Assembly: GCA_002700385.1 (NCBI GenBank)
Contig: PADC01000002.1
Location: 248,001-312,000 of the forward strand
Source of the DNA: Cycloclasticus sp.
GTDB lineage: Bacteria; Pseudomonadota; Gammaproteobacteria; Methylococcales; Cycloclasticaceae
Direction: 5' to 3'
DNA length: 64,000 nucleotides
In this document: in pieces, positions 55,022-63,784 of the stretch
How the letters are laid out: each line of letters starts with the position of its first letter
Numbering within the stretch: the stretch's first letter is position 1
The notes under the pieces: model-generated
Seen by the model: the letters and a program-made list of their open reading frames with translations, nothing else
Database searches by the model: none
Told to the model about the DNA's origin: nothing
Translations under genes and position numbers: made by a program

Positions 55022-56305
55022 ATGAAACGCGTTGTTGGTCTGCTCGTTTTGTTTATGTCGGCACTGACCTTTGTCGGTTGTGGCAATGGTATTGACGAGG
55101 TAAGAGCCGATCATCCTATGAATGCCGAATCATTAGAGCCATTGAGTGGCGACGAGCTTCGGTATTTGGCGTTTCAGGTCTTTCAGGGTGGGTCAGACCC
55201 GGCGATTCCATTTGATGGCGCGTTGGTCTACACGCCGAAGGAGAAGGTTGCCGATATGGTGCGCGACATCGTCACCACCATCGGCGTAACGGGAGGGCAG
55301 AAGACGCGCCTGGCCTTCATTCTTGGGCCTATTGCCTTTGACCATAGCGACGCCGAGGTACGGCAGATCATCGACGACGGCTTCAACATCGCTCTGTCTG
55401 AAAATGTGGCCGTGGGCTTTCACCTCGATGACGCGATGTTCTGGCGCAAGCGGGGCGATCTCATCAATGACCCGACAAATATTGAGTGGACTGATTTTGA
55501 TGGAAGGCCCGCGACCGGTCTATTCCTGGAATGGGCGCGCCCGCCGGCCAGAATGGTCTTTAACTCCCCGACGATACGCGCCGAGGTGACCCGTCGCGCG
55601 CGTGACGTAATCGGTGCGCGTATTGCCGCCCATGTGGCGAACCTTAGGGCGCAAGGGAAAGAAGACCTGTTTGCTGGTGTCATCGCGGGGTGGGAGTCCC
55701 ACATGGGGCAGGACGTCAACACGAGGGATCGCGTGGGTTTTCATGCCCTCGCAAACGCAGGATTTGGCCCGCAGAATCCACCGTCGAATATTGGTGATGA
55801 AATCACCGCAATCGTGGCCGAATTTATCGGCCTGTGGACCGATGGTTTGGCACAGGGCGGGGTCGACAGCAATCGCATATACACCCACGTCGCCTTCCTG
55901 CCCCGAGCGCGTTTTGAAGCGATATCAGCACCGTCGGGCGTAAGCTATGAAGACGTGCTGGATCTTGCCCCCAGCTCGCAACGGCCTTCCGTGGCCTTTG
56001 CGACGAGCGCTCGGCCCGGTTTCTCCACCTATCCGGTCGCAGGCGTCTATGAGCAGATTTACCAGGAGCTCTCGGCACAGGGCAACCCCTGGTGGGCCTC
56101 CGCCGAGGGAACCAACATTATTCCTGCGGATAACCCGGAAAGTTCTGGCATCAGCATGGAGACTTACCTCGCGCGGAGCTTCAACCACGGCGCAGCACTC
56201 GTCACACTATTTGGATGGGGGATTGGCAGTCAGTCAAACCCTTTTCGCACCGCGACCGAAGGCCGCGAGGCGCTTGCGGCTTACCGAAAATTTCTTTCCC
56301 AGTGA
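55022..56305 (+). CDS. Lipoprotein of unknown function, high G+C, possible TIM-barrel hydrolase
   Basis: A 427-residue protein with a lipoprotein signal (KRVVGLLVLFMSALTFVGC, lipid on Cys20) and a good ribosome site (GGAG). I do not recognise the family with confidence. Repeated strand-helix units and acidic end-of-strand motifs (GFHLDDAMFW, GVIAGWESHMG, WWASAEGTNII, FGWGIGSQSNP) suggest a glycoside-hydrolase-like barrel; this is inference. Base composition is unlike its neighbours: I counted 41 G+C of 60 at 55561-55620 and 37 of 60 at 56041-56100, against 16 of 60 at 56581-56640 in the next gene. This indicates recent transfer. No mobile element is visible beside it. Confidence 0.85.
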   Translation: MKRVVGLLVLFMSALTFVGCGNGIDEVRADHPMNAESLEPLSGDELRYLAFQVFQGGSDPAIPFDGALVYTPKEKVADMVRDIVTTIGVTGGQKTRLAFILGPIAFDHSDAEVRQIIDDGFNIALSENVAVGFHLDDAMFWRKRGDLINDPTNIEWTDFDGRPATGLFLEWARPPARMVFNSPTIRAEVTRRARDVIGARIAAHVANLRAQGKEDLFAGVIAGWESHMGQDVNTRDRVGFHALANAGFGPQNPPSNIGDEITAIVAEFIGLWTDGLAQGGVDSNRIYTHVAFLPRARFEAISAPSGVSYEDVLDLAPSSQRPSVAFATSARPGFSTYPVAGVYEQIYQELSAQGNPWWASAEGTNIIPADNPESSGISMETYLARSFNHGAALVTLFGWGIGSQSNPFRTATEGREALAAYRKFLSQ

Positions 56306-56341: not shown

Positions 56342-56959
56342 ATGCGTAATAAAGGAAAAATAACTTCATGGAATCCTGACAAAGGGTTTGGGTTTATAAC
56401 CCCTAATAAGGGTGGCAAACGGATTTTTGTGCATATAAAAGCTTTCAACAGCCGTACAAAAGAACCCAAAATAAACCAAGTCGTTACCTATGCTTTAAGC
56501 ACAGATAAACAAGGTAGAGTGTGTGCTGATAATGTAACTAGGCTAGGGGAAAAATTATCAAAAAGTAATAGTAAAAAGCAAAGTTCAAAAACTATTCTTT
56601 GTTCTGTAATATTCCTTCTTATTGTCGGTATATCAACTTTCTCAGGCAAAGTTAATATCTTGGTTTTTCCTCTTTATATGGTTGCTAGTCTTCTTACTTT
56701 CCTCATATATGCTATGGATAAATCAGCGGCCAAAAGAGGCGGATGGAGAACCCAAGAAAGCACCTTGCACATGCTATCTTTAATTGGTGGTTGGCCCGGC
56801 GCTGCTATTGCTCAGCAAACGCTACGCCATAAATCTAAAAAAGAATCTTTTCGTATCGTTTTTTGGTTTACAGTTGCAATAAATATAGGCGTTTTTACTT
56901 GGTTACAGACCCCAAATGGGGTTATTTTTTCCCAGTCACTTATAGAAAAAATAATGTAA
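56342..56959 (+). CDS. Cold-shock domain fused to DUF1294 membrane protein
   Basis: A 205-residue protein. The N-terminal cold-shock (S1-like) domain GKITSWNPDKGFGFITPNKG..RIFVHIKAF carries the RNP motifs KGFGFI and IFVHI. The second half is a DUF1294 domain with about three or four membrane helices and the motif AMDKSAAKRGGWRTQESTLHMLSLIGGWPGA (given in parts), plus FRIVFWFTVAIN. This CSD-DUF1294 architecture is a known family with unknown function; a membrane-held RNA-binding protein is plausible. It is A+T-rich compared with the gene before it, 36 bp upstream. Confidence 0.88.
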   Translation: MRNKGKITSWNPDKGFGFITPNKGGKRIFVHIKAFNSRTKEPKINQVVTYALSTDKQGRVCADNVTRLGEKLSKSNSKKQSSKTILCSVIFLLIVGISTFSGKVNILVFPLYMVASLLTFLIYAMDKSAAKRGGWRTQESTLHMLSLIGGWPGAAIAQQTLRHKSKKESFRIVFWFTVAINIGVFTWLQTPNGVIFSQSLIEKIM

Positions 56960-57605: not shown

Positions 57606-60020
<2,415 letters not shown>

Positions 60021-61100
60021 TCAGCTTTCCCCTATTTGCATAATACCTTGTTTCACGTGAAACACTTTTGTATCTTTTGCTTCTATAAATTCTAAAAACA
60101 GTTCGATGTTTGTTGTGGTAACAAAAACCTGAACACCTAACTCTCTTAAAAACAACATCACTCTTCTGAAACAATCCCTATCCAATTCTGCTGCCAAATC
60201 GTCCAGTAACACACAAATTGATTTAGTAGATTGTTCACTCATTAATTTGATTTGCGCTAAATACATCGCAATGACTAATAACTTCATCTGGCCTCTTGAT
60301 AAATAATCCTGCGCCGGTTTACGATCGACCAATACCTTAAAATCCGCCTTATGAGCACCTACCGTTGTATAGCCATATTGCTCATCTCGGCCAAGGCTCC
60401 TAGTTAAAGCCTCAGATAGGGATGAGTTCTTCTCCCAGCCTTTTAAGTATTGGATCTCCACATTGATATTCACAATAAAAAAACCAACAATGGTTTTTAA
60501 CTCTTGCTCCAACTGCGCTATGTAACCTTGTCTTGCTTCGGTAACCATTGTACCGTATTCAATAAGCTTATTGCTCCAAACTGCCAAGGTATCCAATTGT
60601 TTAGTTTTTAATAATCTGTTTCTTTGCTTCAAAAGCTGGTTATATTGTTTTGATATCTTTAAAAACGAATGTTTCACGTGAAACACACCCATATCGATGA
60701 ATGATCGCCTGGGCGTTGATCCATTTTCAAGTAACGTTTGAGATTCTGGTCTAATTAAATGTGTGTGTAATAATCGTGATAGCTCTGAAGATTTACTCTC
60801 GGTTTTGCCATTTACTCTAATGAATGTTTTTTCATGGTTTTTTTTAATGGCGAGCTTATTAGTGGACCCTAAAATATCTATCTCGGCAAATACAATTAAA
60901 CTTTCTGCATTGTGTGATAAAACCTTAGCGATATTCTGTGTTCTAAAAGACCGCGCTCTGCTGAGAATATATAACGATTCTAAAAGAGAGGTCTTTCCAC
61001 TTCCATTCGGCCCAACAATAATATTCACTCCGGAAGTGGGTTGAAACTGTATCTCTTCTATGTTCCGAACGCCTTTTATTTGAATATTTTTTAATGACAA
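60021..61100 (-). CDS. recF: DNA recombination and repair protein RecF
   Basis: SMC-like ATPase that helps load RecA at gaps. The 359-residue product has Walker A IIVGPNGSGKTSLLESL (about residues 28-44), the signature YLSRGQMKLLVIAM, and Walker B VLLDDLAAELD. Its coding sequence includes two perfect parS sites, each encoding V-F-H-V-K followed by H or Q. It lies between dnaN (16 bp gap) and gyrB (no gap). Confidence 0.98.
   Translation of the reverse strand: MSLKNIQIKGVRNIEEIQFQPTSGVNIIVGPNGSGKTSLLESLYILSRARSFRTQNIAKVLSHNAESLIVFAEIDILGSTNKLAIKKNHEKTFIRVNGKTESKSSELSRLLHTHLIRPESQTLLENGSTPRRSFIDMGVFHVKHSFLKISKQYNQLLKQRNRLLKTKQLDTLAVWSNKLIEYGTMVTEARQGYIAQLEQELKTIVGFFIVNINVEIQYLKGWEKNSSLSEALTRSLGRDEQYGYTTVGAHKADFKVLVDRKPAQDYLSRGQMKLLVIAMYLAQIKLMSEQSTKSICVLLDDLAAELDRDCFRRVMLFLRELGVQVFVTTTNIELFLEFIEAKDTKVFHVKQGIMQIGES
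60049..60064. promoter_or_regulatory. parS site 1 (ParB-binding centromere element) inside recF
   Basis: TGTTTCACGTGAAACA, a perfect 16-bp palindrome identical to the bacterial chromosomal parS consensus. It lies near the 3' end of recF and encodes VFHVKQ there. Confidence 0.93.
60670..60685. promoter_or_regulatory. parS site 2 (ParB-binding centromere element) inside recF
   Basis: A second perfect TGTTTCACGTGAAACA, 621 bp from the first. It is read in the same frame of recF (VFHVKH). Confidence 0.93.
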
Positions 61101-61116
61101 AAATATTATCTAGAAA

Positions 61117-62217
61117 CTAAATACGCATCGGCATAATGATAAAGCGACTGCTTTTATCATCTGGATTTTCAAGCAGGCAGCTGCTGTTAGTGTCAGTAAA
61201 GGAAACCTGGACACTTTCTGAGTCAATAACATTCAGCGCATCCATTAAATAACTGGAGTTAAAGCCCATGCTCATTTCATCGCCATCATAATTAATAACG
61301 ACCTCTTCTTCAGCTTCATCTTGTTCGGGGTTATTCGCGTTAATCAACATCCGTTGTTTAGCCAAATCTAAACGTATGCCTTTGTATTTCTCGTTTGATA
61401 AAATTGAAACGCGAGATAATGCTGATTTAAACGAGAGTTTATCTATATTAAAACTGTGCTTTGTTTCTGTTGGCACAACATTCTTGAAATCAGGGAAACG
61501 CCCATCAATCAGTTTCGCATTTAATTGAACATCCCCTACATTAAATTTAATGCTGTTTTTAGCTATTTTTATGTCGATATCGCCGTCAAATTTATCAATA
61601 AGTCTTAATAACTCTTGAGCCGCTTTTCTTGGAATAATGACTTGATTGATGGACTTTGTTTCGTTGTCTATTTTATTTTTTGATAAAGCTAAACGATGTC
61701 CATCAGAAGCAACCGTTTGTAATTCGCCGTTTACGAGTTCCATCATTAAGCCATTCAAGTAATAACGGACATCTTGCTGAGCCATACAAAAAATGGTTTT
61801 GCTAAAGGCTTTTAGTAAAATAGATTGAGGTAGGTTAATTTGATCACTGTAATTTGATTCATCAAACAAAGGATATTCATCCGCGGGTAAGGTTCTAAGT
61901 GTAAATCTGCTTTTACCCGATTTAATTTTTAAAACACCGTTATCAAACGATAAATTTATCTCTGCATGGTCTGGTAATGATCGGCAAATATCTAAAAACT
62001 TCCTAGCCGGAATCGTTGACTTTAAATTTTCATTGCTTTCAATTTTTGATTCAGCACTGATTTGAACTTCTAAATCTGTTCCTGTGAATTTTAACCGCCC
62101 ATCATTCATGGATAAATAAACATTCGACAAAATAGGTAAGGTTTGTCGACGTTCAATGACACCAAAAACCTTTTGTAAGGGATCTAATAAATTTTCTTTA
62201 ATAATATTTAATTTCAT
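61117..62217 (-). CDS. dnaN: DNA polymerase III beta subunit (sliding clamp)
   Basis: Ring-shaped processivity factor of 366 residues. It starts MKLNIIKENLLDPLQKVFGVIERRQ and has RFTLRTLPADEYPLFDE, the second domain with YYLNGLMMELVNGELQTVASDGHRLA (given in part), and the C-terminal cleft residues RFIIMPMRI at the end. It has the normal length and lies between dnaA and recF in the origin cluster. Confidence 0.99.
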   Translation of the reverse strand: MKLNIIKENLLDPLQKVFGVIERRQTLPILSNVYLSMNDGRLKFTGTDLEVQISAESKIESNENLKSTIPARKFLDICRSLPDHAEINLSFDNGVLKIKSGKSRFTLRTLPADEYPLFDESNYSDQINLPQSILLKAFSKTIFCMAQQDVRYYLNGLMMELVNGELQTVASDGHRLALSKNKIDNETKSINQVIIPRKAAQELLRLIDKFDGDIDIKIAKNSIKFNVGDVQLNAKLIDGRFPDFKNVVPTETKHSFNIDKLSFKSALSRVSILSNEKYKGIRLDLAKQRMLINANNPEQDEAEEEVVINYDGDEMSMGFNSSYLMDALNVIDSESVQVSFTDTNSSCLLENPDDKSSRFIIMPMRI

Positions 62218-62333
62218 ATTCTAAATACTTATTATAGTTATAAGGGATGAAAAATCTGTTGAAATCATGTTTTTTTATATTAAAATCAATGGGTTAAATA
62301 TATTTTGAATATGTTATTAATTAACATAAATAT

Positions 62334-62342
62334 TGTGGATAA
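62334..62342 (-). promoter_or_regulatory. DnaA box (TTATCCACA), reverse orientation
   Basis: TGTGGATAA on the plus strand, a perfect DnaA box on the minus strand. It is one of a facing pair with 25 bp between them. Confidence 0.85.
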
Positions 62343-62367
62343 CTTGTTTGTATAAATCAATTAAATT

Positions 62368-62376
62368 TTATCCACA
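62368..62376 (+). promoter_or_regulatory. DnaA box (TTATCCACA), forward orientation
   Basis: A perfect TTATCCACA, 12 bp from the end of dnaA. Confidence 0.85.
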
Positions 62377-62388
62377 GCTTACACCAAA

Positions 62389-63717
62389 TTAATGCGATAG
62401 GGTTCTTAACAGGTTAATATAATCTTCATCGATTGCTTGTTCTGAATCTCTGAGTTCTTTCACTTTCCGTGTGGCGTGCAATACAGTGGTGTGATCACGG
62501 CCACCAAACTGGTTGCCAATTTCGGGTAGGCTATATTGAGTCAGTTCTTTTGCTAAAGCCATGGCGATTTGCCTTGGACGAGCAATAGATCGGGTTCGCT
62601 TTGCAGAAAGTAAGTCAGATATTCTAATTTTGTAATATTCGGCGACTGTTTTTTGAATGTTATCAATGCTAATACGTTTATTTTGTAGCGCTATTAAATC
62701 CCTAAGGGCTTCTTTAGTAAAATCAAGTGTAATAGGTTTACCGGTAAAGTTAGCATTAGCGAGTACTCTACGCAGAGCGCCTTCCAGCTCTCTAACATTT
62801 GATTTAATTCGGTTACCCATAAAGAAAGCCACTTCATCCGCCAGGTCAACACCGCTTGAGGCGGCTTTACTTTTTAAGATGGCTACGCGAGTTTCTAAAT
62901 CAGGGGGTTCTACAGGGATGGGTAGTCCCCAGCCAAACCGGGATTTAAGTCGTTCTTCCAAACCATTAATTTCTTTTGGGTAACAATCACAGGTTAAGAT
63001 AATTTGTTTATTATTTTCAATGAGTGTATTGAAGGTGTGAAAAAACTCTTCTTGAGATCGTTCTTTGTTTGCAAAAAATTGAATATCATCAATTAGTAAA
63101 AGGTCTAAAGAGCGGTAGTGATTTTTAAAATCATTGATGGCGTTTTTTTGTAGCGATTGCACCATATCAGAGACAAAACGTTCTGACGATATAAAGCAAA
63201 CTTTTGCGTTTAGATTTGATTGAATTAGGCTATTACCAACAGCGTGCATTAAATGCGTTTTACCAAGGCCAACGCCACCATAAATAAATAATGGGTTATA
63301 GGAAGTCCCTGGGTTTTCAGAGACTTGAATAGCCGCTGCTTTCGCTAATTCATTCGATTTACCCACAACAAACGAATCAAAGGTAAAAGCGCTGTTCAGG
63401 TTGTGAGTAATGTTTTCATTATGGGGAATTTTTGATGAGGCTTTTTTAATATGATTCGCTGGTGAAGATTGTTGAGGCTTTGAACTCCCAATTTTTAATA
63501 AAATCTGAGTTTTATTATCAGTTAACTTATTGATTATATTGGTTATATTTGAAATATAATTATCAGAAACCCAGTCTAAAACAAATTTATTTGGAGCAAA
63601 TAAAAGCAGTTCATGATGATGAGTTTGTGCTTGTAATGGGCGTACCCACGTGTTGATTTGTTGAGGAGGGATTTCTCCTTCCAGTTGTTGTAAACACTGT
63701 TCCCAAAGAGATGACAC
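62389..63717 (-). CDS. dnaA: Chromosomal replication initiator DnaA
   Basis: AAA+ initiator of 442 residues. Domain I starts [23 protein letters not shown] and PNKFVLDWV. The AAA+ core has Walker [12 protein letters not shown], Walker [10 protein letters not shown], and [19 protein letters not shown] (sensor region). The domain IV DNA-binding signature is [19 protein letters not shown] chose the GTG at 63717, which has AAGGA 6 bp upstream and gives the family N-terminus. The frame opens at 63783, but that start lies on a DnaA box and adds 22 unusual residues. Confidence 0.97.
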
Positions 63718-63775
63718 ATTAATCCTTAATGAAGTTAAACTGAATTCTTTGTAAGAATAACGTTTAAAAGAAAAG

Positions 63776-63784
63776 TTATCCACA
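63776..63784 (+). promoter_or_regulatory. DnaA box upstream of dnaA
   Basis: A perfect TTATCCACA in the dnaA leader, about 60 bp before the GTG start. It is suited to autoregulation of dnaA or to an origin in the dnaA-rpmH gap. Confidence 0.8.

Follow-up and report, generated by a model that had tools for sequence, protein, structure and literature searches.

The window, meaning the whole stretch of 64,000 nucleotides of Cycloclasticus sp. DNA analysed here, carries a replication operon in the order dnaA, dnaN, recF and gyrB, and its recF gene holds two copies of a 16-bp palindrome. The features of the locus are the following:

57606-60020, minus strand: gyrB, directly downstream of recF (Pfam DNA_gyraseB)
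60021-61100, minus strand: recF, host of both sites, 359 aa with a TTG start (NCBIfam TIGR00611 recf, 332 bits for a cut-off of 172; Pfam SMC_N)
60049-60064, strandless: very probable parS site B (C-terminal site), TGTTTCACGTGAAACA, perfect palindrome, recF codons for VFHVK-Q
60670-60685, strandless: very probable parS site A (central site), TGTTTCACGTGAAACA, perfect palindrome, recF codons for VFHVK-H
61117-62217, minus strand: dnaN, beta clamp (Pfam DNA_pol3_beta domains)
62218-62388, strandless: likely oriC, the AT-rich dnaA-dnaN intergenic region with two TTATCCACA DnaA boxes (62334, minus; 62368, plus)
62389-63783, minus strand: dnaA (Pfam Bac_DnaA)

The initial annotation had reported two mismatch-free copies of the palindrome, 621 bp apart and both encoding VFHVK in the same recF frame, and this was confirmed. 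TGTTTCACGTGAAACA occurs at 60049-60064 and at 60670-60685 with no mismatch, the distance of 621 bp being 3 x 207, and the two copies are read in identical codon phase, as GTG TTT CAC GTG AAA CAA (VFHVK-Q) and GTG TTT CAC GTG AAA CAT (VFHVK-H), respectively. Both belong to the class of 16-bp palindromes close to TGTTTCACGTGAAACA / TGTTYCACGTGRAACA to which parS sites belong. At lower coordinates than gyrB, two plus-strand reading frames were also seen: a 427-aa lipoprotein-like ORF (55022-56305) with a GC content of up to 0.59, compared to ~0.36-0.46 regionally, and no Pfam match, which was possibly acquired, and a cold-shock domain fused to DUF1294 (56342-56959).

We scanned the whole genome (2,516,899 bases, 99.99% complete) for further copies. 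Allowing up to 2 mismatches to the exact 16-mer gave the two recF copies and nothing else, and a reversed control gave 0; the search for the 16-mer suggested in the initial annotation therefore returns the recF pair only. With the degenerate TGTTYCACGTGRAACA, no further match was found in the 2.5-Mb genome at up to 1 mismatch, two more sites appeared at 2 mismatches, and the 43 matches at up to 3 mismatches were near the control level of 30, so that these 2- and 3-mismatch sites were left uncounted as parS. Two perfect copies greatly exceed what chance would give. Because the genome has no other good parS, the recF pair is most likely the whole chromosomal centromere.

The position of the sites relative to the origin was evaluated from DnaA boxes and GC skew. 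Besides the two boxes of the dnaA-dnaN intergenic region, one more lies at the dnaA start, and the GC skew switches sign at ~61.4-62.3 kb. Taken together, these signals place the sites ~1.5-2.3 kb from the likely oriC and 3.1-3.7 kb from the dnaA start.

The genome encodes a chromosomal ParA-ParB pair, which provides a cognate ParB for the sites, as well as SMC (SMC_prok_B, 1068 bits). The ParB passes TIGR00180 with 188.8 bits (cut-off 58.45), aligns well with ParB structures and retains the GERRWRA and ENIQR motifs and the helix-turn-helix pattern G-x-S-R...N...G-H-x-R. Moreover, R173 and G201, which are reported to be absolutely conserved across ParB orthologues (PMC7383237), are both present when the alignment is read by eye. 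A Noc-binding site (NBS) was considered and ruled out, the sequence being that of parS: the Noc specificity residues are Q173, K179, K184 and R201, the ParB here has R173 and G201 (alignment read by eye against PMC7383237), and the Noc model TIGR04285 scores 222.5, below its cut-off of 315. The gene order around parAB is mnmG-rsmG-parA-parB-atp genes (L034, 8283-12468). These genes lie on contig C6 and dnaA on C8, so that the assembly does not place parAB beside the origin, where it is usually found. On C8, where yidC-mnmE-dnaA is found (L033, 4292-5662), unrelated genes follow mnmE; the mnmE-mnmG neighbourhood seems to be broken here, which would set parAB and dnaA over 15 kb apart on that side.

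The initial annotation had read the palindromes as parS sites near the origin and had made this depend on the presence of parB. The reading stands, given the unique 16-mers, the ParA, ParB and SMC genes and the short distance to the likely oriC. We therefore put a probability of about 0.95 on both palindromes being chromosomal parS centromere sites, embedded in recF near the likely origin.

To place the pair in a wider context, recF genes were compared within the genus and across the class. Both sites (up to 1 mismatch) are present in 14 of 15 genus recF genes, the window's own included, with a spacing of exactly 621 bp in every case; in the remaining gene (L009), the central site has given way to VFHQKH and the C-terminal one is kept. 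For the class, a single recF gene was taken from each of 92 gammaproteobacterial families, out of 226 recF-bearing genomes and regardless of parS. At up to 1 mismatch, parS is found at the central position in 77/92 genes (45 exact), at the C-terminal position in 79/92 (58 exact), at both in 69/92 and at one or both in 87/92, frequencies that may be somewhat high since the sample came from the better-scoring RecF matches, and some dependence between related genomes persists even with a single gene per family. The two sites are 609 to 666 bp apart, in every case by a multiple of 3. Elsewhere in the 99 kb of class recF sequence there is no parS, and 16 were counted in 273 kb of recF flanks. Genera with both sites include Chromohalobacter, Onishia, Rhodanobacter, Luteibacter, Methylophaga, Alcanivorax and Luteimonas. 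When 30 class loci were fetched by parS alone, 18 of them held recF with a site inside. The alignment columns of both sites are common to the class, and the pair has the in-frame xFHV(K/E) arrangement of the P. aeruginosa type.

These comparisons bear on two ideas of the initial annotation that did not survive. The VFHVK runs had been described as insertion-like; both pentapeptides occupy RecF columns that are present everywhere, and are ungapped substitutions, the C-terminal one overlaying an older F-x-V-x-x-G. Nor is VFHVK special to this lineage, a question for which an alignment of RecF proteins had been suggested, since the pair is class-wide in Gammaproteobacteria and also found in P. 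aeruginosa recF (PMC5521831). The same data settle whether a short element recurred by chance or was recently duplicated, an idea that two identical 16-mers 621 bp apart, each coding for V-F-H-V-K, might encourage. Chance recurrence, already judged unlikely in the initial annotation, is opposed by two exact copies versus zero control matches genome-wide; recent duplication is refuted by the comparative data, as both positions are separately homologous across the class, their flanks differ and separate losses are seen. We regard the probability of either as negligible.

Three variations on the layout were also observed. In a genome of the same taxonomic order (L019), three perfect parS lie ~1.0 kb apart outside recF (at 1501, 2529 and a third ~1.0 kb further; G019:C201:14389, 15417 and 16434), which is an alternative centromere layout. 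Xanthomonadaceae have an extra parS just before recF (L052 4844, L053 4934, L054 4935) plus two inside. In L180 (G082), both recF sites have jointly become FHM (CAC ATG GAA), each with one mismatch located at the same base, possibly reflecting a co-evolved ParB specificity.

If the sites are read by ParB as DNA, codon choice should be more restricted than the protein demands. For this, we counted codons at 159 FHV(K/E) site instances and calculated expected numbers from the codon usage of the same recF genes. The H codon is CAC in 157/159 instances (67.0 expected), the V codon GTG in 156/159 (51.4 expected) and the K/E codon AAA or GAA in all 159 (86.2 expected), with per-site P values between 3e-45 and 3e-23. 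An unbiased scan of the 349 testable recF codon columns gave the same picture, the top eight columns being exactly the eight parS codons (z 8.0-11.8; next column 6.8). This supports the proposal of the initial annotation that recF has been moulded at the coding level to accommodate the sites. Where the fifth residue is E, TTC is the silent F codon on the other side of the palindrome axis in 47/68 central sites (27.9 expected from the gene's own usage, P=2e-7) and in 37/62 C-terminal sites (27.8 expected, P=0.007), a covariation that would be as expected of symmetric half-sites. K with TTT at the C-terminal site did not go beyond the gene's own codon usage, and palindromic covariation may be taken as solid only for E with TTC. 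Overall, the palindromes are conserved in relatives independently of protein coding, and protein needs cannot explain the fixation of silent codons.

A protein-level feature, in which RecF itself needs VFHV(K/E) twice and the DNA identity is a by-product, is accordingly very unlikely. It draws some support from the C-terminal site, where F and F-x-V-x-x-G occur in RecFs that have no parS (other classes and Enterobacterales), and from Photobacterium, where the peptide VFHVEP is kept although CAT GTT has removed the DNA site, parS lying elsewhere in the locus. However, codons are fixed far beyond the usage of their own genes, and free synonymous codons are uncommon at the site positions in ParB-bearing species. 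Moreover, K and E take turns as the fifth residue, opposite in charge and yet the sole residues that RAA permits, and H and V are lost in lineages without ParABS. Enterobacterales, an order whose best-known family is reported to lack ParABS (PMC4368675), illustrate this with CFHNEP and MFRVE/MFTVE/MFNVE written in mixed codons.

The link between the sites and ParABS was also examined at the level of genomes. A ParB match was missing in 13 of 276 class genomes, counts that are approximate as TIGR00180 also picks up plasmid ParBs. Exact parS is missing in 11 of these 13, compared to 86 of the 263 ParB-bearing genomes (Fisher P=3e-4), and the two ParB-less genomes with an exact parS are drafts. 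One genome with recF and no ParB match (G280) has neither site (L190). In RecF lineages that lack ParABS, the sites are gone.

As for their origin, 20 RecF genes sampled from the phylum's other classes contain no parS within two mismatches. In most of these, F-x-V-x-x-G is already there in the C-terminal region, indicating that the C-terminal site arose on top of a pre-existing protein motif. In a RecF gene tree (FastTree), the class and the outgroup fall on two sides of one branch. The presence of at least one site needs 6 changes on this tree; taken singly, the central site needs 15 and the C-terminal site 13. With few well-supported inner branches, the tree only suggests one gain followed by several losses.

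We consider it likely that the recF parS pair is the ancestral gammaproteobacterial centromere, and that selection on DNA for ParB has overridden the choice of RecF residues for the age of the class, with repeated K/E swaps dictated by the purine of the half-site and a constraint that lapses with the loss of ParABS. On the centromere reading, a ParB dimer would sit on each palindrome with one half-site per protomer, and the bound ParB would close into a CTP-dependent clamp and slide onto the neighbouring DNA. ParA would then move the ParB-loaded origin to the cell poles, where ParB may also load SMC at the loaded origin. CTP-dependent sliding clamps, ParA movement and SMC loading are established in characterised systems (PMC7333895, PMC8367383); from work in P. 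aeruginosa, Caulobacter and Bacillus we infer that binding, spreading, segregation and SMC loading would proceed likewise here. The selected DNA would be xTG TTY CAC GTG RAA CA, read as (V/L/M)FHV(K/E), and because the sites lie within the gene, selection for ParB binding would fix RecF codons and some residues at two places.

Sites that bind ParB could have a mainly regulatory conserved role, in which ParB spreading over recF tunes the dnaA-dnaN-recF-gyrB operon, whether in place of segregation or in addition to it. In P. aeruginosa, an excess of ParB lowers expression around parS1-4, gyrB included (PMC5521831), and the host operon in the window is a replication operon too. In parB-null and parS-null strains of that species, however, de-repression is confined to PA0010-PA0015, near the intergenic parS3/parS4, and does not extend to the genes flanking the intragenic sites (PMC5521831). 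In addition, the recF pair is the only good parS in the genome analysed here, and segregation must use it if it is parS-based at all. A mainly regulatory role is therefore unlikely, and the centromere reading is retained.

These findings indicate the position of the centromere in a large bacterial class, where it would rarely move because it is tied to the reading frame of recF, 2 kb away from the origin. They offer a clean case, with a strong and simple statistic, of selection for DNA binding shaping a conserved protein, in which lineages minus ParABS serve as natural controls. In practice, parS positions are predictable from the recF sequence alone for many gammaproteobacteria, and recF deletions may remove centromere sites too.

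A recF-located parS pair is itself already known from P. aeruginosa, in which parS1 and parS2 lie within recF (PMC5521831). Our literature search, mainly of open papers and with the survey of Livny et al. 2007 outside its scope, found no description of a class-wide recF pair or of codon fixation; the class-wide conservation and codon freezing may thus be undescribed so far. With the ParB-Spo0J centromeres of Bacillus subtilis and Caulobacter (PMC7333895), the window shares the class of 16-bp palindrome near the origin that is read by ParB, whereas the recF location is gammaproteobacterial (parS in 0/20 other-class RecF genes). The resemblance to P. aeruginosa is closer, as both have two near-perfect parS in recF, in a dnaA-dnaN-recF-gyrB operon by the origin. 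The P. aeruginosa sequences, TGTTCCACGTGGAACC and TGTTCCACGTGGAACA for parS1/parS2 (PMC4368675), match the FHVEP / FHVE(H,Q) coding of relatives. Cells with parS2 as sole intact site show normal segregation and a wild-type phenotype (PMC4368675), so that in this species a parS inside recF is enough. The two systems differ in that P. aeruginosa additionally has parS3 and parS4, both strong and intergenic, and six weaker sites, whereas the recF pair is all that was found in the window's genome, and in that P. aeruginosa uses the C/G variant of the palindrome and the window the T/A variant (TTTC..GAAA).
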